Assembly (NCBI RefSeq): GCF_030253575.1
Contig: NC_080564.1
Location: 3,392,501 to 3,456,500, forward strand
Source of the DNA: Rhododendron vialii
Lineage: Eukaryota; Streptophyta; Magnoliopsida; Ericales; Ericaceae
DNA length: 64,000 nt
Reading direction: 5' to 3'
The translations under genes were made by a program, and so were the position numbers. How positions within the stretch are numbered: position 1 is the stretch's first letter; every line of letters starts with the position of its first letter. The notes below the pieces were generated by a model. The model saw only the letters and a program-made list of their open reading frames with translations. It made no database searches and was not told the DNA's origin. Below, piece after piece: positions 40,842 through 63,630 of the stretch.

Positions 40842-42758
40842 TGCTTCGTTTTTAGCTACTGATCGATGTTGCTGTATTTATTTGAATCGCCTGGTTTGGA
40901 CCACTTCTACTGAGGTTTTCTTCGTAGTGAAGGTGAAGACGATTTTTGGGCTTGGGGGAGAAGACACCCAAATCATCTAGGACCATTTTGCCATTATGGA
41001 GCTCATTAGTGGCAATCTATAAAATTAGTCGAGAAATTTTTGGGTGCATGGTGGGTATCACGTGGTGTCCGCTCAGCACATTCGGGCTGTCCATTTCTGT
41101 TTTGGACAGCTCAGATTTGGAAAGAGAAAAAAAAAGTGGTGGGATGAGAGAGTTTCAATCTGGACCGTCCAACACACTTTTGGACGGCCTAGATGAGCTG
41201 GCACCACATGGGTTAGAAGTAATTATTTGCCGGCCACGTGTAATTCTTTGCGGCCATGAATAATTCTTCGAGGTCACGTGTAATTATTTGCAGCCATGAG
41301 TAATTCTTCGCACCGGGTGTAATTCTTTGCAGCCGCGTGTAATTCTTTGCGGCCAAAAGTAATTCTTCGTGTCAGGTGTAATTCTTTGCGGCCATGAATA
41401 ATTTTTCGCACAAGGTGTAATTCTTCACGGCCACGTGTAATTCTTTACGGCCAAGAGTAATTTTTCACGCCAAGTGTAATTCTTCGGGGCCATGTGTAAT
41501 TTTTTGCGGCCAAGAATAATTCTTCGCGGCCACGTGTAATTCTTTGCGGCTGAAAATAATTCTTTGCGGCCACGTGTAATTCTTTACGGACAAGAGTAAT
41601 TCTTATTCACTAATGACTGGGAGCTGCTATTTTCACGCACCTTTTATCTCATCCCGTGTATTTGGGCTTCTTGTAGTTACTCCCACCTTCCAATTTTGTT
41701 TGCTCATTACGACAGCCATTAAAACAACACAATTACTTTAATGTACGAGTCCTTCTTGGTATTGTGCCGAAGACCAGTTGTGTTTTGGACAATCGTCGCT
41801 TGGTATCAGCATTCATCAAACAAGCACATCTGCAATAATGCAAATGCCAAGTTTTACCATCTTTGTTACCAGTTCTATCCTCATTGAATGACGTGATGTA
41901 ACATTGAATGTAGAAAAAATTACTATATATTTACACTTGTAAGCACGCTTTCGTACTGGGTTTGAAGGAAGTACTTTGGAGGAGGATATAAGTTCTTTTT
42001 GTTTTGGTGGTTAATTTCGTCTCAAATTTATAGCACCTCCAACCCATATGTCGAAAGTGAATTGACATTGCCAACGTCAAAATAGGCAAACTTTCTTGCC
42101 ATAAAAAGGCAAAGTGTCCATCGAAGAAGGAGACGGTAAGGCTTTGTGAGTTTGGAGCCATGTTCATAGAAACCAGTGCTAAAGCAGGATTCAGTATCAA
42201 GACAAAAGTAACATCCGTAGATGCTCGTTCGAGGATATAATCAGACGTGCTTCATGTCTAGATACAGACAAAAAACAAGAAAAAAGACAATAAACGTACA
42301 GGATTTTATACCAAATGGGCCCTTAATGCATGCAACTGAGAATCAAGCATGAAGATGTGGATCAAAGTAAAAAAATGCACAAATCCAAAAGCCACTACAC
42401 CATTTCATTAGAAAGACGCAGGAAATCAATATGAAAACCAAGGTTTTATAATGAAGGCAGTACAGAAGAAACATCCATGCTCGAGGACAATCTATTCTAC
42501 AGTCTCCTTTCTATAGAGTAAAGTAACATCCCCATGCACTGTTCCCTCGCATCACTAGTCAGAGGAGCACAGCCTGATCTGCATGACAAAAGTAGAAACG
42601 AAGAATGAGTTTAGGTGCCAAATCTCCCAACAAAATTAGTATTACGATGGCATTTTTTTGGGCATCAAATTCAACATTTTCTGTAACGCATCTGCAGAGA
42701 TTCCCAACTTAGGAGGTTGAGAAATTACGAGTGACTTTAGGCATCAACACACCAAGCA
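40842..42758. other. PAD1 promoter region and RPN10 3' side
   Basis: Besides the minisatellite, 41040-41215 looks like part of an unassigned repeat, with GGACAGCTCAGAT and the inverse-like GGACCGTCC and GGACGGCC. No gene recognised. Confidence 0.5.
41218..41610. repeat. 20-bp minisatellite, about 19-20 units, with CACGTG boxes
   Basis: Units follow GTAATTCTTTGCGGCCACGT, alternating with a variant closer to GTAATTCTTCGCGGCCAAGA, which suggests a 40-bp higher-order unit. Five units contain the palindrome CACGTG (41234, 41274, 41429, 41549 and 41574, each approximate). The array lies about 380-770 bp upstream of the PAD1 start codon and downstream of RPN10. No coding frame of its own. Confidence 0.9.
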
Positions 42759-50158: not shown

Positions 50159-50321
50159 TTTCTCTCTGTGTTTTGTATGACGACGGAGTGAGAAGAAGTA
50201 TATGTTTACTTGTAGAGGAGGCTTAGAAAGGGTTAAACTTCACGAATACCCCGTAAGTAGTATCAAATTCACAAGTTCTACCCAGTTTACTTGTGTTTGA
50301 TCCACTTGAATATATATTGAC

Positions 50322-50719
50322 CAGAGTGGTGCTATTTGCACCGATGAATAGTGTAAGGAAATGGTACCGACCGCCGCGCGCGGCCGTCTCCGGCCACCGG
50401 ACGGCCCATCCGAGCCGTCCAAAAATTTTAAAAAAAAAACCGAGGGGCCTAACGCGGGAATCAACGGCATCCGATGTGTGTAGGGTGCTTGATCTAGACA
50501 CTCTATTTTTCGTGTATGCACACATATATACACGAAAAATAGGGTGTCTAGATCAAGCACCCTACGCACATCGGATGCCGTTGATTCCCGCGCTAGGCCC
50601 CTCGGTTTTTTTTTTTTAATTTTTGGACGGCTCGGATCGGCCGTCCGGTGGCCGGAGACGGCCGCGCGCGGCGGTCGGTACCGTTTCCCTACACTATTCA
50701 TCGATGCAAATAGGATTTC
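50322..50719. mobile_element. Near-perfect palindromic MITE, 9-bp target duplication (MULE-like), upstream of RPN10
   Basis: A 398-bp insert flanked by TATATTGAC at 50313-50321 and 50720-50728; a 9-bp duplication is the hallmark of Mutator-like elements. Inside, two arms of about 185-190 bp are inverted copies with only a few mismatches, sharing GAATAGTGTA, GACGGCCGCGCGCGGCGGTC, CGAGGGGCCTA, GGCATCCGATGTG and GATCTAGACAC. They meet at a centre around GTGTATGCACACATATATACAC (50515-50536). No coding capacity; the open frames on both strands merely mirror the palindrome. It begins 237 bp upstream of the RPN10 ATG. The high arm identity suggests a young copy. Confidence 0.92.
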
Positions 50720-50728
50720 TATATTGAC

Positions 50729-51896
50729 TAATAGGACAATGAGAATGACATTGTATTTCTAACAAAACTAAGAATAATTTTTTGCCTAATTTGAGACCCA
50801 ATTCCTTGATTGGTAAGGAACCAACCAAGGACAACACCTATGGGCTGAAGCCCAAACACCTAAAAGGGCCGAAGCTCGAACACCTAGATGGGCTAAGCCC
50901 AAACCCAAGGAAATCAAAAAACCCTAACCCTATTCCAATGTCAGTTGCCGAACCGCTGGAGTTGAAAACCGTTGGCACCGTTGACCGATCAACCACACCA
51001 CTCCCTAGTGTAGGAAACCAAGCATGATGAGCAGAAGCACCAAGGGCACCAAGTTTGATCCACTTATGTAGTGGAATTCAATTTTCATTATTGACCTATT
51101 CAATTCGATTGTTGTTTGGCTTGGTTTTACCATTATTTTGATTGACGGGGTTGATTGTTTTCTAATTATTTGTCAATTTTGGTGGATATGAAGGCTATTA
51201 AGATGTTGATACCATTAGGTGAGTATATATATGGATGGATGGAAAGATGGGTTTTGTCTTTAGGGTTTTTTTTTTTTTTTTGGTTATGTTTGGAAACTTC
51301 TATAGGTGCAGAACATGCCTGCGGTGATTAAGAAAAAAAAGAAAGAAAATGAGGAAAAAGTTGGTATTTTGAAAATTGTTTTGCTGAAAAGGTGGCTTCA
51401 AGTGCTAAATGATTACACAAAAATAAAGAGACGCAATGTGATTTTAGATGATAAAAAGTATACAATATAATTTGAGTGAAATCTAGGGGTGCTAATGAAG
51501 TTTACCCTTAGTTGGAGGTCCTGTATTGAACCCGCGAGGTTCCCTCTCCCCGACGAAAACTCGCTAGTTTTCTTGGATTTGTTCCAATGTAGTCTAACCC
51601 AAGATTATAAATGTAAAATTTTTATTTTACTTCCCGATGAGATTTTGATTCGTATCCGATTAATATGATTTTTAATACCGTCAATGTTCTATACAATATA
51701 TACAAAATGGACGATTTCGATTTATGAAATAATCTTAATATAAACCATATTCAGTTCTCAATGTGGTATGCATGAACTTGTACTATCTTCGCATCTTCAA
51801 TCTGTGAAGTTAATATACATCAAATTCGCACTTAACAAACGCGCTTTATTTGTAAATAAAAGCCCCCCGACATTTTCAGTTCTTGCACATGTGTCC
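50729..51896. other. Intergenic, no gene recognised
   Basis: A plus-strand open frame (50782-51027, Pro/Lys-rich) has no family resemblance that I can see. The rest is AT-rich. Confidence 0.55.
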
Positions 51897-54629: not shown

Positions 54630-55020
54630 ATTAAATTCTTCGCACCGGCGGTGGAAAATCCTACTATTCCACCACCATCTTTTTCGGTCTTATCGCGTGT
54701 GTTTATTGTTGATCTGAACCGTTCATCTTGTAGATTCCATATAGCAGTGTGTCCCTGCAAAAAAAACTTGATCGGACATCGATAGGAGTATCAAGAATTG
54801 ATTTTTGCTTTGTAAAATAGATAGTTTATCTTTATTATTATTAACAAAAATCAGATTGTCTATTTTAAAAATCAAAATCCAAATTTTGATATATCTATCA
54901 ACTTCCGATCAAATTGATTTTTTGCATGGCAATACTATATTGTGTGTCTTAAAATATGAACGGTTCATATCACAATAATAGACACTCGCTGAGGCCTATA
55001 ATAGGCGGTGGTTGGAAAAA
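54630..55020. mobile_element. Foldback MITE, distant relative of the HIPP-linked elements
   Basis: Inverted arms share TTGATCTGAACCGTTCAT, CCTGCAAAAAA, TTGATCGGA and GTAAAATAGA on the left with their inverses on the right (TTTTAAAAATC, TCCGATCAAATTGATTTTTT, ATATGAACGGTTCATATCAC). The centre is ATTATTATTAAC near 54835. The order and content of arm motifs (GATCTGAA-CGTTCA, then GCAAAAAATCA) resemble the pair at 8.2-10.1 kb. Non-coding; no clear target duplication. Confidence 0.75.
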
Positions 55021-55488
55021 TAGAATTTTACACTGACGGTGGAAAAAATTTATTCTGTTATATTATTTGTGTACCAGTGTACTACCACTACCAGTTTTGA
55101 GGTTGTAAAATTTAAGTTCCTAGCTCTGAAGTTGTAGCAACCCAAAAACTTGCTAAGGCAGCCATGGCCAATGTGTAATGCTCTTATCATCTATGGAATT
55201 TGCTTGGTTTCAAAAACAAATAAAAATTGCCAAAAAATTGGGAACTCTGTGATAATTCGTGCTACCATGTTTTAAAAGTTTATGTTAAAAACGTTTTGTG
55301 AAAAAAATATGAACAAACTTTTGTTCTCATTTTTTTTTTTTTTTGGTAAGCATTTTTTTCCAAACCAAATATATATTAAATTTGGGTTAAAACCAAATGG
55401 GCCCCACCTTAATTATGGTAAAACCAATATGACCAGTAACATTCCAACATCAAGCAGGAAACCATTTCAATTCGGCTTTGAAGATTCG

Positions 55489-55491
<3 letters not shown>

Positions 55492-55541
<50 letters not shown>
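55492..55541. repeat. (TA)n microsatellite
   Basis: About 25 uninterrupted TA units, 200 bp upstream of the F-box gene. Likely polymorphic in length. Confidence 0.95.
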
Positions 55542-55544
<3 letters not shown>

Positions 55545-55739
55545 TACCTATGAGGGGTGCAGATTTTAAATCTCAGCCGTTGAATTTCATTCAATGGCCG
55601 ACAGTCGAGATTGTCGTCCGTCGGATGAGATTCAACTGTCCGTGAGGAAAAAAATCCATTCTAAATTAGGACTTGAAGATTAGTAGGGATTATCAGGATA
55701 TAAATAGAGCAAGAGAGGGGAACAAGAAAAAGGAAAGAC

Positions 55740-57026
55740 ATGCCAATGCTCATACAGATATCGAAGAAACCCCGAGAGAGAGAGAGCCATGGCGGTGGAT
55801 CAGTTTCGGCAGTTCTCCCTCGCGAGTTGGTGGCCGAAGAGTTGCTCACGAGGCTTCCGGCCAATTCCCTGATGCGATTCAAGTGTGTTTCAAAGCTGTG
55901 GCGTTCAACCATCACCGATCCTTCCTTTTGCAAAGCCCACCGCGCTCGTTCCTGTTCCCGCCGTGGCTTATTAATGGTACGTCCGGACGTCAACCCCCCT
56001 GTCTCAGGATTAGGCTTCTTCCTCTACGCAAATTACGGAGCATCTGTGTTAGAATCGCTTCACCCTTTTACAGTAGGAGGAGGAGGAGGACTAGTTAAGA
56101 AGAAGAGGAATAAGGTAGGTGTATTAGAGTTGCTTCACCAGTTTAACGTACGAGGAGATGGTGTTACGGAGGTGGTTAACGGCCTCTTTTGCATGTACAC
56201 GGATTGTCGGGCGAGGATTTGCAACGTCTCTACCGGTGAAATTATGGAGCTTCCTAGTCCTCCCCCGAAGAAACATAAATCTTTCAAACACTGCAAGTGC
56301 CATCTAGGTTTTGATTCGGCTCGCAACCAATACAAGTTGCTTAAAGCTTGCTAGTTTCAAACAATTAACGATTGTATTCGGTGTATCTCAGAATGTGAGA
56401 TTCTTACTTTGGGCAAGGACGCGGCGTGGAGAAGCATCCAATTAGTTGATCGGAGAATGGATACGCGGCGGCTCCAAAGCGTTTATATCCATGCCCATGG
56501 TGCTCTCTATTGGTGGAATGCTATCGGACACGGTATCATTGCTTTCTCTTTTAAAGATGAGATTTTTCTACCGCTGGTTCCCCAACCACCAATTCTGCGC
56601 TACACGGGTTCATTACTTCAATTTGGAGACTATCTGGCCGTGGCAACTGGGTTAGTTGATCGAAAACTACAGCTATGGGTATTAGATAAACCCCTAACAC
56701 TGTCAGTCTGTCCATGGACTCTTCACCTCATCCACATTCCGTATGATTTCGCTGACCACGGATGTTGCTTGCTTGGGAACCTCCCTACTGGTGAGATGTT
56801 AATGACTAGTACTGAAGAAGAAAGAGAGATTAATTCTCGTTCTTCATCACCCAATCACATTTGTGTTTATTCATACAATCATACTCGACGGAAGTTTGAA
56901 AAGTTGGTTACGAGCAACAAGTTCCCATCTTTCCTAGCTTCGGTCAGAAAGAATGACAAGAAGTTCCGCATCTACTATCATGAGGAAGACATCACACTAC
57001 TTGATCATTTGATTAGAAACAAATAA
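55740..57026 (+). pseudogene. F-box protein gene interrupted by one in-frame TAG
   Basis: F-box proteins recruit substrates to SCF ubiquitin ligases. One frame runs for 429 codons from MPMLIQISKK at 55740 to a stop at 57024-57026, broken only by a TAG at 56352-56354 after YKLLKAC. The F-box is at residues 26-70 (LPRELVAEELLTRLPANSLM, then RFKCVSKLWRS). After the stop the same frame goes on at once with ECEILTLGKDAAWR and later typical F-box-associated motifs (LYWWNAIGH, IIAFSFKDE). No intron signal would remove the TAG neatly. The site could be CAG or TGG-type changed to TAG. It is either a young pseudogene, a truncated F-box-only protein of 204 residues, or a sequence error. No intron, as in many plant F-box genes. 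Confidence 0.85.
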
Positions 57027-57721
57027 TTTATTTCTCAGGAACCCCAATGGGGGCTTCTAGTAGGATGACTATTCTAGGATTATGATAATTATATTTGGTT
57101 TATTAGGTTGCCTCCTATGAGGTAGACTAAATTGAATGTACATTTCAATATGGTTTGCTTGCACTTCTGATTAATTAAGTCATCTGAACATGTGGTAGTT
57201 TTACAAGAGACTAGACTACATCACTTAGAGCATCAGCACAAGGCTCAACAAATTTTGGACTAAGTTAAACATCAAGACACTATCCACAATACATCAGACT
57301 CTTTATTATAACTCCGGTCTGTTATATTCTTCTTCTTTTATCTTCTCCTTTCCTTTTTGTATGTTGTAAAATGAATAAGTCATGCAGTTATATTTGTTAT
57401 GTGCATTCTATTGCTTGGACATATAATATAGAATATCGACAGCTGAGTGAACAATGCCTCTCTTAAGAAAGAGACTAAGAGAGTGACTGTTGCAATTGCA
57501 AATTGTGGCGAGCCACTTGGGATGATACCTGAGCTTGATGCAAGGCTCTTTTGAACCAATTGCTAACTAGAGTAGCATACAGAGCAATATAGATTACATT
57601 TAGCTGCTGCTCTTTAGTTTTGTGGTCACGCTCAATGAGCAGCTTAGACAATCATCCATTGCTATACTGAAGTTGATGTGACATGTTGACACACGCGGCA
57701 TGGCATAATTTTATTTTACTG
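57027..57721. other. Spacer downstream of the F-box gene
   Basis: No gene recognised. The phrase TTAGAGCATCAGCACAAGGCTC near 57226 resembles ends of plant MITEs but no partner end was found. Confidence 0.5.
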
Positions 57722-57814
57722 TCTTCCTGGAATTTCTCAACCTCAGCCATTATGGAAAGAATTCCAAGTAGATGGCCACGTCCTGTTTGGCATCCACCAT
57801 GGAAAAACTACAGG
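57722..57814 (+). pseudogene. Isolated PRL1-like exon
   Basis: Reads SSWNFSTSAIMERIPSRWPR then PVWHPPWKNYR and ends in a consensus donor (AGG/GTAAGA). This matches the segment of PLEIOTROPIC REGULATORY LOCUS 1 (PRP46-type spliceosome protein) just before its WD40 repeats (remembered as NLSTAALMERIPSRWPRPEW). No WD40 exon follows anywhere in the next 6 kb. The kept splice site points to copying of genomic DNA rather than a retrocopy. Fragment of a gene duplicated or captured from elsewhere. Confidence 0.8.
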
Positions 57815-58654
57815 GTAAGAGAACTCTTGTCTGTGAGGCTCTTCTATTCTAGTTCTTGGGAAGGATTTTGTGGTTGACAGTTCGGAGTTCCATTTTCATT
57901 CAATACCTAAAATGTTAGGGATAGAGAATCAAGGTTGCATTTGAGTGGCAATCATTTTGAACTTCAGCAGGTAGCATTTAGCAACCTATTTTCTGTTATA
58001 TTTCACCAATGTGGCTCATCTGATTCAACTATATTTTGAAAACTGCACTCCTGCCCTTTCGTTATGTTAGCATGAAGTGGTATGGTTAAGCTGTTTCAAA
58101 AACTTCATCTCTGATTCTGCTGCTAGGAACCGGGATTAGAGTTTACCGACTAGCTAGTATTTATATAAAGTGTATAAGAAGTTGTCGATGCTCACTATCG
58201 ATTAGCTGATTTTTATTTTTTATTTTATTTTTTGTGTTTCATGATCTGCAGAGTTTAGGGTTCTCTATATTCTTTAGCTTAATGAACCCTCCTCCAAATT
58301 CAAGGGTCAAAGACTTCTATAAAAACTGCCTTTGTGAAAACAAAAAATGTGAATGAAAGGTCTTTTCTTTGGCAAGGCAACCAAAGGCTAGGAGTGTTCC
58401 ATATCAATAGGATAGGAATGTGCTTCGTGTGCATCATTGGAACAATGGATTCTCAATACCAAGTTTGCATTCGCTGTGTTGTTTTCACATCCTATCTGTT
58501 AGTCTACGGAGGTGTGGCAAAACCATATGATACTGGGCATTTTATCCTTTCATTCTATTTTTTTTTTTTGTATCCCACTTTTGATGCAGTAGGTTTAAGG
58601 GTATGTATGTCATTTGGAGTCCTTTGTAGTAGAGGGTCTATAAATAGGAGTCTA
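57815..58654. other. Spacer between the PRL1-like exon and the exon array
   Basis: No coding signal I can support; the longest open frame (58334-58732) has no recognisable features. Confidence 0.5.
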
Positions 58655-59065
58655 TGGGTTAATGCACATAGTTGTCAATTGATAGAGAGCTCATTTGTAT
58701 ATATAGCTTGGTATGCATTTGCATCAGTCTAGGACAAGGTGCATGCTTTTTCTACGAGGTACACACAAGTATGGGTTGCTCAGTTGCCATTGTTTTAGGG
58801 CAGTTTATGAGAGAATCTCCAACAGTATCCTATTCCTCATGCTGCTGTTGTAATATAGTAACCATGTTCAAAAATCATAATCTGAGGTATACGAAGTGCT
58901 ATATACTATATAGGTATTCGTGGTGCTATATTTGGCACGAGTTTTGCCTATGCGTACTTGGTATTAACACCACTTGCTCATTGCTCATTACTCATTGTTA
59001 CTTGTGCATTACTTGTCATTTTCATATTACTCATGGATTAAAGAAATATTTGTTCTGGTTTACAG

Positions 59066-59294
59066 CCAAGAGTTGATGTGGGACAGCAAGGCCGCGTGGT
59101 CAGAGATACAAGTCTGATCCATCTCCAGTCTAAGGTGAGTTGAATTGTCTATGAGACCTGCATATTACATTACTTGTCATTTCATATTACTCATGGATTA
59201 CAGAAATATTTGTTCTGGTTTACAGTCGAGAGTTGATGTGGGACAGCAAGGCCGCGTTGTCAGAGATACAAGTCAGATCCATAGCCAGTCTAAG
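59066..59294 (+). CDS. Exon pair A1/B1 of the array
   Basis: Exon A1 59066-59134 and exon B1 59226-59294, each 69 bp, phase 0, with TTTACAG acceptors and AAG/GTGAGT donors. A1 encodes PRVDVGQQGRVVRDTSLIHL plus QSK; B1 encodes SRVDVGQQGRVVRDTSQIHS plus QSK. The two exons are themselves a duplication. Spliced together they give a 23-residue protein repeat. I do not recognise the family. Confidence 0.6.
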
Positions 59295-59888
59295 GTGAGT
59301 TGAATTGTCTAGGCATTAGGGGAACCCTTGTTTTAAGTTTATGGTTATTTAACATTTTTCGTTTGTTTGCAATCCAGGAGTGACTGAGGTTCAATTTATG
59401 GACAGCTTTTTTGTTGTAATACATAACTTATGGGTTAATGCACATAGTTGTCAATTGATAGAGAGCTCATGCCAAATATAGCACCACGAATACCTATATA
59501 GTATATAGCACTTCGTATACCTCAGATTATGATTTTTGAACATGGCTACTATATTACAACAGCAGCATGAGGAATAGGATACCGTTGGAGATTCTCTCAT
59601 AAACTGCCCTAAAACAATGGCAACTGAGCAACCCATTTTTGTGTGTACCTCGTAGAAAAAGCATGCACCTTGTCCAAGACTGATGCAAATGCATACCAAG
59701 CTATATATACAAATGAGCTCTCTATCAATTGACAACTATGTGCATTAACCCATAAGTTATGGGTTACAACAAAAGAGTTGTCCATAAATTGAACCTCAGT
59801 CACTCCTGGATTGCAAACAAACGAAAAATGTTAAATAACCATAAACTTAAAACAAGGGTTCCCCTAGTGCCTAGACAATTCAACTCAC

Positions 59889-60117
59889 CTTAGACTGGCT
59901 ATGGATCTGACTTGTATCTCTGACAATGCGGCCTTGCTGTCCCACATCAACTATCGACTATAAACCAGAACAAATATTTCTGTAATCCACGAGTAATATG
60001 AAATGACAAGTAATGTAATATGCAAGTCTCAAAGACGATTCAACTCACCTTAGACTGGACATGGATCTGACTTGTATCTCTGACCACGCGGCCTTGCTGT
60101 CCCACATCAACTCTCGG
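59889..60117 (-). CDS. Inverted exon pair A2/B2 of the array
   Basis: On the minus strand exon A2 is 60117-60049 and exon B2 59957-59889, again 69 bp each, with AG acceptors and GTGAGT donors intact. B2 differs slightly (SIVDVGQQGRIVRDTSQIHS). They point away from the flanking copies, so they cannot be part of the same plus-strand message except as antisense. Confidence 0.55.
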
Positions 60118-60594
60118 CTGTAAACCAGAACAAATATTTCTTTAATCCACGAGTAATATGAAAATGACAAGTAATGCACAGGTAACAATGAGCAATGAGC
60201 AAGTGGTGTTAATACCAAGAATGCATAGGCAAAAATCGTGCCAAATATAGCAACACGAATACCTATATAGTATATAGCACTTGGTATACCTCAGATTGTG
60301 ATTTTTGAACATGGCTACTATATTACAACAGCAGCATGAGGAATAGGATACCGTTGGAGATTCTCTCATAAACTGCCCTAAAACAATGGCAACTGAGCAA
60401 CCCATATTTGTGTGTACCTCGTAGAAAAATCATGCACCTTGTCCTAGACTGATGCAAATGCATAACAAGCTATATGTACTTGGTATTAACACCACTTGCT
60501 CATTGCTCATTGCTCATTGCTCATTGTTACTTGTGCATTACTTGTCATTTTCATATTACTCGTGGATTAAAGAAATATTTGTTTTGGTTTACAG

Positions 60595-61065
60595 CCGAAA
60601 GTTGATGTGGGGCAGCAAGGCCGCGTGGTCAGAGATACAAGTCAGATCCATCTCCAGTCTAAGGTGAGTTGAATTCTCTCTGAGACCTGCATATTACATT
60701 ACTTGTCATTTTCATATTTCTCGTGGATTACAGAAATATTTGTTTTGGTTTACAGTCAAGAGTTGATGTGGGCCAGCAAGGCCGCGTTGTCAGAGATACA
60801 AGTCAGATCCATAGCCAGTCTAAGGTGAGTTGAATTGTCTTTGTGACCTGCATTGCTGCATATTACATTACTTGTGGATTACAGATATATTTGTTCTGGT
60901 TTACAGCCAACATTTGATTTTGGACAGTAGGCCCGCGCCCCTGCCCACACAGATCTTTCGGCAAAAGCCGAGGAGGAGGATGAAAAAGTTGGATTGGCAC
61001 ACTTCCTGGGCAAGTCAGAAGCCCTGGAGGGGCTTGCTGAGCTGTATGGATTTATTGAAGACTGA
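60595..61065 (+). pseudogene. Exon pair A3/B3 and last exon of the array gene
   Basis: Exons A3 60595-60663 (PKVDVGQQGRVVRDTSQIHL, then QSK) and B3 60756-60824 are followed by a last exon 60907-61065 with acceptor TTTACAG. It reads PTFDFGQ, a TAG, then in the same frame ARAPAHTDLSAKAEEEDEKV, GLAHFLGKSEALEGLAELYG and FIED before TGA. FDFGQ echoes VDVGQQG of the repeat. The single in-frame TAG (60928-60930), at a place where the repeat has Gln, suggests a CAG-to-TAG change. Without it the C-terminus would be 53 codons. The family is not recognised; upstream exons were not found. Confidence 0.55.
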
Positions 61066-61557
61066 AAGAATGGGGGGCTATTAATTTCTCATTTACTACA
61101 TGTTCTGTTCAATATTTTCTGACTTTCTGTGGAGTGGAGTTCCTGTAAAATGACTACTACTAGTGGAGGTTCGTTTGGACTTTTGATTTGCTACTATTTT
61201 GCTTTTCATTTTCGTTTGATTTTGCCATTAGTTTTGTGCTAAGACCTTGAATTTGATGCAACAAGGGTCTAAGATTTAAGCGGGAATGATATATTTTCCC
61301 TTTTCATTTTCTTATTAGTAGTTTGTTTACTTTTTTTGAACACAGAAGGTTAGGATTATCCTGAAGGGATTTGCTCCCTTTCTATTTCTTTGCGAAATGG
61401 AGATCTTCACCTCATGGTTTGAAGAACATTGACTGATTGGATTCGATGAAGCAAAAAGTTCAATCTTATTGCTATAATTAGTCTAATTGTGTTGTAGCTT
61501 GAGTAAAAAGCTGCGATGGATCTGAGTTTGGACTCGCATTTTCCATAACCGGCGACC

Positions 61558-61842
61558 TCTGCCGCCATCAGCGCCGCCCCTTCACGACTACGAGAAACCT
61601 CTGCTAGTACCCGTTTGAAATTGAATTCGGTGCTTAAACGAATTAGGGCTCGGAACAACAAAGTCGATGGCGTTCTCCGCCTCCTCCTGTTCTTCTACAC
61701 CTCTGCTCCATTGGCCTTCTACGTCAAAATCAATGGCTTAAACGAATTAGGGCTCGGTCTGAGCCCGACGGCAAAATCACTGGCATTTTCTTTGGTGATT
61801 TCAACCCCTGTTTCATTGGCCTTCTACATCACGGATATATAG
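61558..61842 (+). CDS. Small hypothetical hydrophobic frame
   Basis: Frame open through TSAAISAAPSRLRETSASTR, RIRARNNKVDGVLRLLLFFY and ending FSLVISTPVSLAFYITDI; two hydrophobic stretches. It contains an internal echo (LNELGLG, and LAFYVK against LAFYIT), coming from a repeated CTTAAACGAATTAGGGCTCGG. No clear ATG at its start. Not recognised. Confidence 0.25.
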   Translation, partial: SAAISAAPSRLRETSASTRLKLNSVLKRIRARNNKVDGVLRLLLFFYTSAPLAFYVKINGLNELGLGLSPTAKSLAFSLVISTPVSLAFYITDI

Positions 61843-62880
61843 ATATAGTTGGAAAAATTAGTCTTTGGGTTTTAATTTGCCAATATTTCCATGTTTCTCT
61901 GAATCTCTCCGATTGTTAAGGAAAAGCTGAGTATAAGTGTGTCTTTGTTGTTCATTTGGGTAGATGTTCAGTGTTGGAGTGGGAAAGCAAGTGTCTTTTG
62001 CTCGATGTCGGTGGTGGTGATGGCAGTGGAGGTCGCCGATGGTTATGGTGTTGGCCGGTTAGGGTTTGGTGGTGGTCGCTGTCCTCCTCCTCTTTCTACG
62101 TTGTGTTTAGGCGTGGGGGAGAAGAGCGGATTTCAATTTTGAGTTGGGTTTTTTTTTAGTAGGCTCAGCTGCCACCTCAGCTGATGTGGTTGGAGTGTGG
62201 TAAAAAATGATGTGCCTATAGCACTTCCGATGTATAAAATTCCATGAATATAAATTTTATAGTCCTATCCCATAGGCTTTTTTGGTTGTTATTTTGTAGG
62301 AGTATTTATTTTGTGTAAACACTAGTATACTAATTATTGTACTTGTATTTCTTTTGTGTCTAAATATAAATTATGAAAAGTAACTTAAATCAACAAATAT
62401 GTAGTCAATAACCCAATGGATTGACTTAGTGGGCATGTGAATACTTGATATTAAGGATTGCTTCCTTTAAGTTCTCAGATTCGAACTAGTAAAAGTTCTA
62501 TTACTTCATTTGGTCAGGACCATTTTAAGTGGGGCCCTCGCCAATGTACAGTGAGTTTATAGTCCTCACTCTCAAAATTAGTCGAAGTGGACAGCAATTG
62601 GTTCGGACACCTAATTAAGAATATATATTTTTAGAGTCGATACACTATCTTGTTGTCGTACTTTTTTTTGGGATCATTTTTCTTGGTGTACTTGGATTTC
62701 AAAAAATGCCCTCTCTACAAATTTATGGTCCAATCTTGTTATTGCTTCTTTTCTTCTTCTTTTTTTTCGTTTAATTATTCCTTTGTCTAATTTAGACACC
62801 ATGTGTGCCCAGATTCATATCAAAATAGCATATTCTAATTTAGACACAATCTGTGCCTAGATTCATATTCAAAATACTAG

Positions 62881-63112
62881 TAATCCCTCCGTCCAAAAAT
62901 GTTTGTCTGGTTCGCAAAACGAGAACTAAAAATATATTAAAAAATAATGTATTTTTTGAAGACAAAGTTCAAACTTTTTTCATAAATTAAAAAAACTCAT
63001 CGATATCTATTAAAAATGATTATTATTTTTTGAATTTTTCTTGTAAGAATTATATTATTTTTACGTTATTATTTTGCATACCGAAAAACAATATGTGACG
63101 GAGGAGAGTTTA
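62881..63112. mobile_element. Stowaway-like MITE
   Basis: Ends CCCTCCGTCCAAAAATG on the left and GTGACGGAGGAGAG on the right, both next to TA. About 230 bp, very AT-rich between. Ends fit the Stowaway consensus; the right end is more diverged. Confidence 0.65.
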
Positions 63113-63630
63113 AGTGTGTAAAAACTAAGGCTCTGTTTGGAACTTGTGGAAAAGAAAAGAAAAAGAAAAGAAAGGGAAAGAAAATAAAATGGGAGGAAAA
63201 TGAGAGGAAAAAGGAAAGGAAAATTTACTATTCTCAAAATTTAAAATTATTATTTTCTTCTCTTTTTCTCTTCCAACCAAACAATAGGAGGAAATTTTTT
63301 TTTGTTTTCCTTTCCTTTCTTCAAGTTTCAAAGAGAGCCTAAAAGAGGGGTAGTGTATAAACTGGAGTAAAAGAAGTAGAGAATCACAACCAACCACGCC
63401 CTCGCTTTCATGTGCATAGTAGTATAATTTTGTCCATACGTATGAATTTTATACCCCGGAATTTTCTCACCTAAACGTTTTCTCGAGTTTGACAGCTCAA
63501 AGCTGCTATCGAGATTTGAGACAAGTAAAGTTGGAAAGAAAAAAAAACACCAGAGCGAGAAAATTCAGCTTCGGAATTCAAATGGAAATGCAAGAGAGAG
63601 AAACTTCAAACTCCTAGCAGAGAGAGAGAG

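Follow-up and report, generated by a model that had tools for sequence, protein, structure and literature searches.

A tandem array of duplicated exon-like pairs in Rhododendron vialii, probably rearranged by a single inversion in a decayed gene end

Transposons that carry fragments of genes are known as Pack-type transposons. Clusters of mutually exclusive exons, according to a published model, arise from duplications that include the arms of intronic stem-loops (PMC6071210); the words inversion and inverted do not occur in its text. Long endogenous hairpins of Arabidopsis feed Dicer-like enzymes, as described in PMC4687873; for soybean, PMC3534067 describes siRNAs that stem from larger inverted duplications. 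Here we compare with such systems a locus from a 64,000-nucleotide stretch of the Rhododendron vialii genome (hereafter the window, to which all positions given without a contig refer), where exon-like segments are both duplicated and inverted. A literature search, which was not exhaustive, found no report of this locus.

The array at 58653-60840 consists of three copies of a two-exon module (A and B, 69 bp each) in the order forward, inverted, forward. Exons A1 (59066-59134) and B1 (59226-59294) lie on the plus strand, followed by the inverted copies B2 (59889-59957) and A2 (60049-60117) on the minus strand and by A3 (60595-60663) and B3 (60756-60824), again on the plus strand; four of the six homologous tandem exons of 69 bp are thus plus-stranded. 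All six are open in phase 0 and keep the AG and GT splice sites (6/6), TTTACAG precedes each of them except B2 (TTTATAG), and GTGAGTTGAAT follows directly after each of the six. Furthermore, A and B are copies of one another that recur every 160/161 bp, a period that includes the preceding intron, the short introns measuring 82-92 bp as calculated from the exon coordinates. The inverted arms, 58697-59470 and 59713-60479, are 95.3% identical over 774 bp, and the BLAST E value of 0 between them places the arrangement far beyond chance. The first-pass annotation had described precisely this order of modules, six open phase-0 exons with both splice sites, and the kinship of A and B, all of which is borne out; of the 23-residue repeat that it reported, the peptide it quoted holds 20 residues.

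How this order came about is best seen when one segment is turned around. In native order, TRF finds no period above 161 and a best score of 554, while under the same settings reversal of 59471-60474 yields a period of 769 with 2.8 copies, 93% matches and a score of 3841. Control reversals of other 1004-bp segments (n=29) gave no period above 300 in 22 cases; the remaining seven gave a long period with scores of 1154-2668, the best being the control nearest to the proposed joints. Hence, head-to-tail units appear once one segment is reversed (score 3841 vs 2668 for the best control). By repeat comparison, unit 1 (58653-59428, plus strand) comprises spacer S, exons A1 and B1 and spacer T. To the left of the first inversion joint lies the start of unit 2 (59429-59470, plus strand), whose 42 bp are identical to 58653-58694. 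The inverted segment (59471-60474, minus strand) contains, from left to right, the S part of unit 3 and then T, B2, A2 and S of unit 2, and the remainder of unit 3, which includes exons A3 and B3 and is again defined by repeat comparison, occupies 60475-60840 on the plus strand. At the joints, 7 bp and 16 bp are missing relative to the other units and nothing is duplicated. Since the un-inversion restores the 769-bp period and leaves such small joint losses, we read the array as a tandem repeat with one later inversion.

The divergence of the units is informative as to the order of events. In the part shared by all units, which leaves out the stretch after B3, pairwise comparisons give 24/644, 20/642 and 26/628 substitutions (3.1-4.1%); the intron following B3 shares no homology with spacer T. 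As the units are about equidistant, the inverted unit should be of roughly the same age as its neighbors, and a tandem duplication with a subsequent inversion offers the simplest history. Given these near-equal distances, we reject a fresh copy of a neighbor as the origin of the inverted unit. Templated repair by replication template switching, in which an inverted copy is added and no existing unit is flipped, could explain why a 73-bp fragment of a high-copy repeat (58582-58654, no strand assigned) adjoins the array, overlapping it by 2 bp at 58654, like possible filler DNA, and would agree with the short and imperfect homologies that were read by eye at the joints; yet no extra sequence is left after un-inversion, and the inverted unit is no nearer to either neighbor than the neighbors are to each other, which makes this reading unlikely. 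The joint homologies also fit end joining, and it is this repair route that we infer for the inversion. The 73-bp fragment itself has at least 31 further places in the genome at 93-99% identity, among them five same-strand pairs 2.4-3.1 kb apart, a spacing as found for the LTRs of short retrotransposons, and is probably LTR-derived.

An array of this kind also raises the question of assembly. Units that are 96-97% alike and an inverted piece of about 1.3 units in length are what one would expect if the assembly had placed ~1 kb of a tandem array in reverse. On the other hand, the window is free of N, the joints carry small, specific losses with no duplicated overlap, the contigs are tens of megabases long, and HiFi reads, if the assembly is based on them, should span the whole array, so that we accord an artefact next to no probability.

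Do the exon-like segments still belong to a working gene? Over the six copies, exons differ at 74/1035 sites (7.1%, a value that includes the differences between classes A and B) vs 56/1132 (4.9%) in the flanks, and the variable exon sites are distributed 3/3/3 over the codon positions. No coding constraint was detected on the A and B exons, for which few sites are available. The nine changes within class A or B, again few, include four synonymous ones (expected fraction 0.28; P(>=4) = 0.23), which leans toward weak constraint. In neutral simulations, the probability that all six frames stay open and none of the 24 splice bases is lost was 0.42 at 2% change per branch, which is close to the value implied by the unit comparison, and 0.22 at 3.5%. 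The intact exons therefore need no selection and are not telling, being compatible with selection as well.

Downstream of B3, a terminal exon-like segment (60907-61065, plus strand) begins with a diverged copy of A/B, the stretch 60859-60937 being 81% like the B1 unit. Read in phase 0, it encodes PTFDFGQ*, that is, an in-frame TAG at 60928-60930 terminates the frame after seven codons. Beyond the TAG, the same frame continues for 44 codons to a TGA; these codons look to us like coding sequence, and the gene end may thus have worked recently. In Pfam, neither the A/B peptide nor the terminal 44-codon frame matched a family above its cut-off, and the two in PDB had no relative at E up to 10; Rfam gave no match for 55000-63500. 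Two candidates from the Pfam search, RNase P p29 (E 0.015, 15.6 bits vs a cut-off of 27) and a ubiquitin-like family (E 0.13), were rejected.

If the gene were nevertheless working with a repeated-exon array, the plus-strand exons A1, B1, A3 and B3 would be used and the inverted unit would reside inside a 1.3-kb intron. Phase-0 exons with consensus-like splice sites and introns as short as 82-92 bp would suit such a gene, as would the PRL1-like exon upstream, whose end at a GTAAG donor is likewise in phase 0. The coding constraint that should accompany it was not detected, however, the terminal exon is stopped early by the TAG, and the searches yielded no Pfam family above cut-off, no PDB relative and no second copy in the genome. 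The evidence leans against a working gene, and we consider one with a repeated-exon array very improbable.

Among the best candidates scored in the genome (532,647,506 bases in 13 contigs), no copy elsewhere was found for the A/B unit or for the terminal exon. According to the first-pass annotation, the ancestral state would be shown by a functional paralogue that has one A/B pair only; none turned up in the genome at the sensitivity used. In tblastn searches of the A/B and terminal-exon peptides against 13 loci at E up to 100, the weak and scattered matches (best E 0.32) were not accepted, in contrast to the PRL1-like exon, which in the same run gave four matches at E 1.9e-13 or better. The spacer does have a second copy, ~87% alike, at C8:3381367-3381886 (C8 and similar labels denote contigs). 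Its order, T then S, agrees with the reconstructed order of the units. This copy begins about 0.2 kb past the last codon of a NAT10-like frame (frame end C8:3381178; PF13725, E 4.2e-6, 27.1 bits vs a cut-off of 27), and the 3′ end of the NAT10-like gene, with the T-S spacer copy behind it, occupies L009:6780-7890 (C8:3380780-3381890), 70 kb from the array. NAT10 helicase pieces (PF05127) at C8:3367962-3369718 would belong to the same gene; more such pieces are present at C8:3331518-3333166 and C8:751191-752548. A distant relative of part of the spacer, 75% alike, is found on C13. The tandem order of the units, the TAG in the terminal exon, the kinship of that exon with A/B and the spacer copy 70 kb away are all new beyond the first-pass annotation.

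Altogether, we consider the forward/inverted/forward array to be mostly the product of ordinary rearrangement in a decaying gene end, and a duplicated exon pair that became a tandem array and then underwent a ~1.0-kb inversion in a decayed gene end is very likely the best explanation overall. A simple rearrangement in a dying gene had been named in the first-pass annotation as the alternative to a hairpin source, and it is this alternative that fits best, given the un-inverted tandem order, an exon divergence that is not below that of the flanks, and the terminal stop. In the mechanism that we propose, a 160-bp piece of intron plus exon at the end of a now-decayed gene would first have been duplicated to give A and B, and the A/B pair with ~0.45 kb of spacer would then have been expanded into a tandem array of 769-bp period with nearly three units. 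Later, a two-break inversion of ~1.0 kb, sealed by end joining with small losses, would have reversed one unit. The plus strand, if transcribed, is predicted to form a hairpin of ~780 bp that Dicer-like enzymes could cut.

The consequences of the inversion for RNA structure are indeed large. For 58653-60480, the predicted fold has an energy of -1400 kcal/mol vs -486 kcal/mol for the un-inverted order; six stretches of the same length from the window gave -395 to -735 and four mononucleotide shuffles -417 to -446. In the native fold, 756 of the 825 pairs span more than 200 nt, and the predicted hairpin of ~780 bp, which the inversion has created, pairs a 5′ arm at 58697-59482 with a 3′ arm at 59700-60479 (both on the plus strand). 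The self-complementarity proposed in the first-pass annotation is thereby supported, while the arms it had placed at 58655-59470 and 59471-60474 differ slightly from those of the fold. Such long-range pairing is, at the same time, the automatic outcome of any inversion within a tandem array.

A more demanding reading holds that the array is an endogenous inverted-repeat siRNA locus, in which a plus-strand transcript would fold into the near-perfect ~780-bp hairpin and be cut by Dicer-like enzymes into siRNAs of 21-24 nt that would target either the locus itself (in cis) or the matching 3′ flank of the NAT10-like gene. The long, near-perfect inverted repeat that such a model presupposes is present (774 bp at 95.3%, with a minimum free energy of -1400 kcal/mol), and comparable loci exist in Arabidopsis according to PMC4687873. 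In addition, exact matches to the NAT10-like 3′ flank comprise 48 positions with 21-mers, shared with L009:7385-7795, and 32 positions with 24-mers; the C13 relative, the other of the two loci examined, has none. Since any tandem array with an inverted segment would show such pairing, and since no second copy of the A/B exons that could serve as target turned up among the best genome candidates, we regard an siRNA locus as unlikely. That the inversion-born hairpin might go so far as to make small RNAs that silence the NAT10-like RNA acetyltransferase gene 70 kb away in trans, which would make it a young RNA-interference gene, is a conjecture from sequence matches to which we attach an extremely low probability.

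The surroundings of the preferred tandem array with one inversion are rich in sequence shared with other parts of the genome. Upstream, 57616-58566 matches several other genome places, with related stretches on C4, C6, C8, C9 and C12. It includes the PRL1-like exon (57740-57814, TSAIMERIPSRWPRPVWHPPWKNYR), which has a GTAAG donor at its phase-0 end and is flanked by intron-like sequence; its peptide is found at four other genome places (E 1.5e-8 or better) and matches pleiotropic regulator 1 chains in PDB (best E 3.3e-6). To the right of the array, 61543-62229 has two near-copies (96-97% identity) on C7 and C9 and is possibly a recent non-autonomous DNA transposon of the foldback type. In the C7 and C9 copies, the arms are inverted repeats of each other; most of one arm is absent from the window copy. 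Farther away, 55704-57026 holds an F-box frame (PF00646, E 1.7e-6) with an in-frame TAG at 56352-56354 followed by 223 codons in the same frame, a probable F-box pseudogene. Similar peptides, as judged by eye, are encoded on both strands of 50240-50758, and the stretch from 50000 folds at a low -734.5; this is probably a further inverted repeat. At 41218-41604, a degenerate unit of ~20 bp forms a tandem array of ~19.5 copies.

Two points of wider relevance emerge. It takes no more than one small inversion for an ordinary tandem array to yield a long RNA hairpin, a single step that is a possible birth route for small-RNA loci. Unless transcription or small RNAs are found, the main lesson is that function can hardly be read from splice sites and open frames that are still intact in young duplicates.

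Compared with the systems described so far, the locus shares features with several. As in Pack-type transposons, fragments that resemble other loci lie side by side (the PRL1-like exon and the NAT10-like 3′ flank); within 57-63 kb, however, inverted pairs of >=25 bp number 14, and none of them encloses the array as terminal inverted repeats would. With tandem exon duplications and clusters of mutually exclusive exons it has in common exons of equal length and phase that were duplicated together with their introns, and complementary segments that could compete for pairing, as in the model outlined in PMC6071210. The complementary segment, however, is here the whole inverted unit, in contrast to the short docking site of mutually exclusive clusters, and, again unlike these clusters, the array displays no detected coding constraint and a terminal stop; judged by its sequence, we would not file it among them. 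Like Arabidopsis IR71 and IR2039, as these are described in PMC4687873, it is a long inverted repeat on a single strand that could give double-stranded RNA without an RNA-dependent RNA polymerase, but its arms derive from a tandem array with one inversion, and what we know of it comes from sequence and a predicted fold. The closest likeness is to local tandem segmental duplications with an internal small inversion, with which the array shares head-to-tail units, similar divergence among them, one reversed segment and small joint losses. From these it does not differ in kind: the exon-like pieces are incidental, and apart from them the array is of a known type, a tandem duplication with an inversion.
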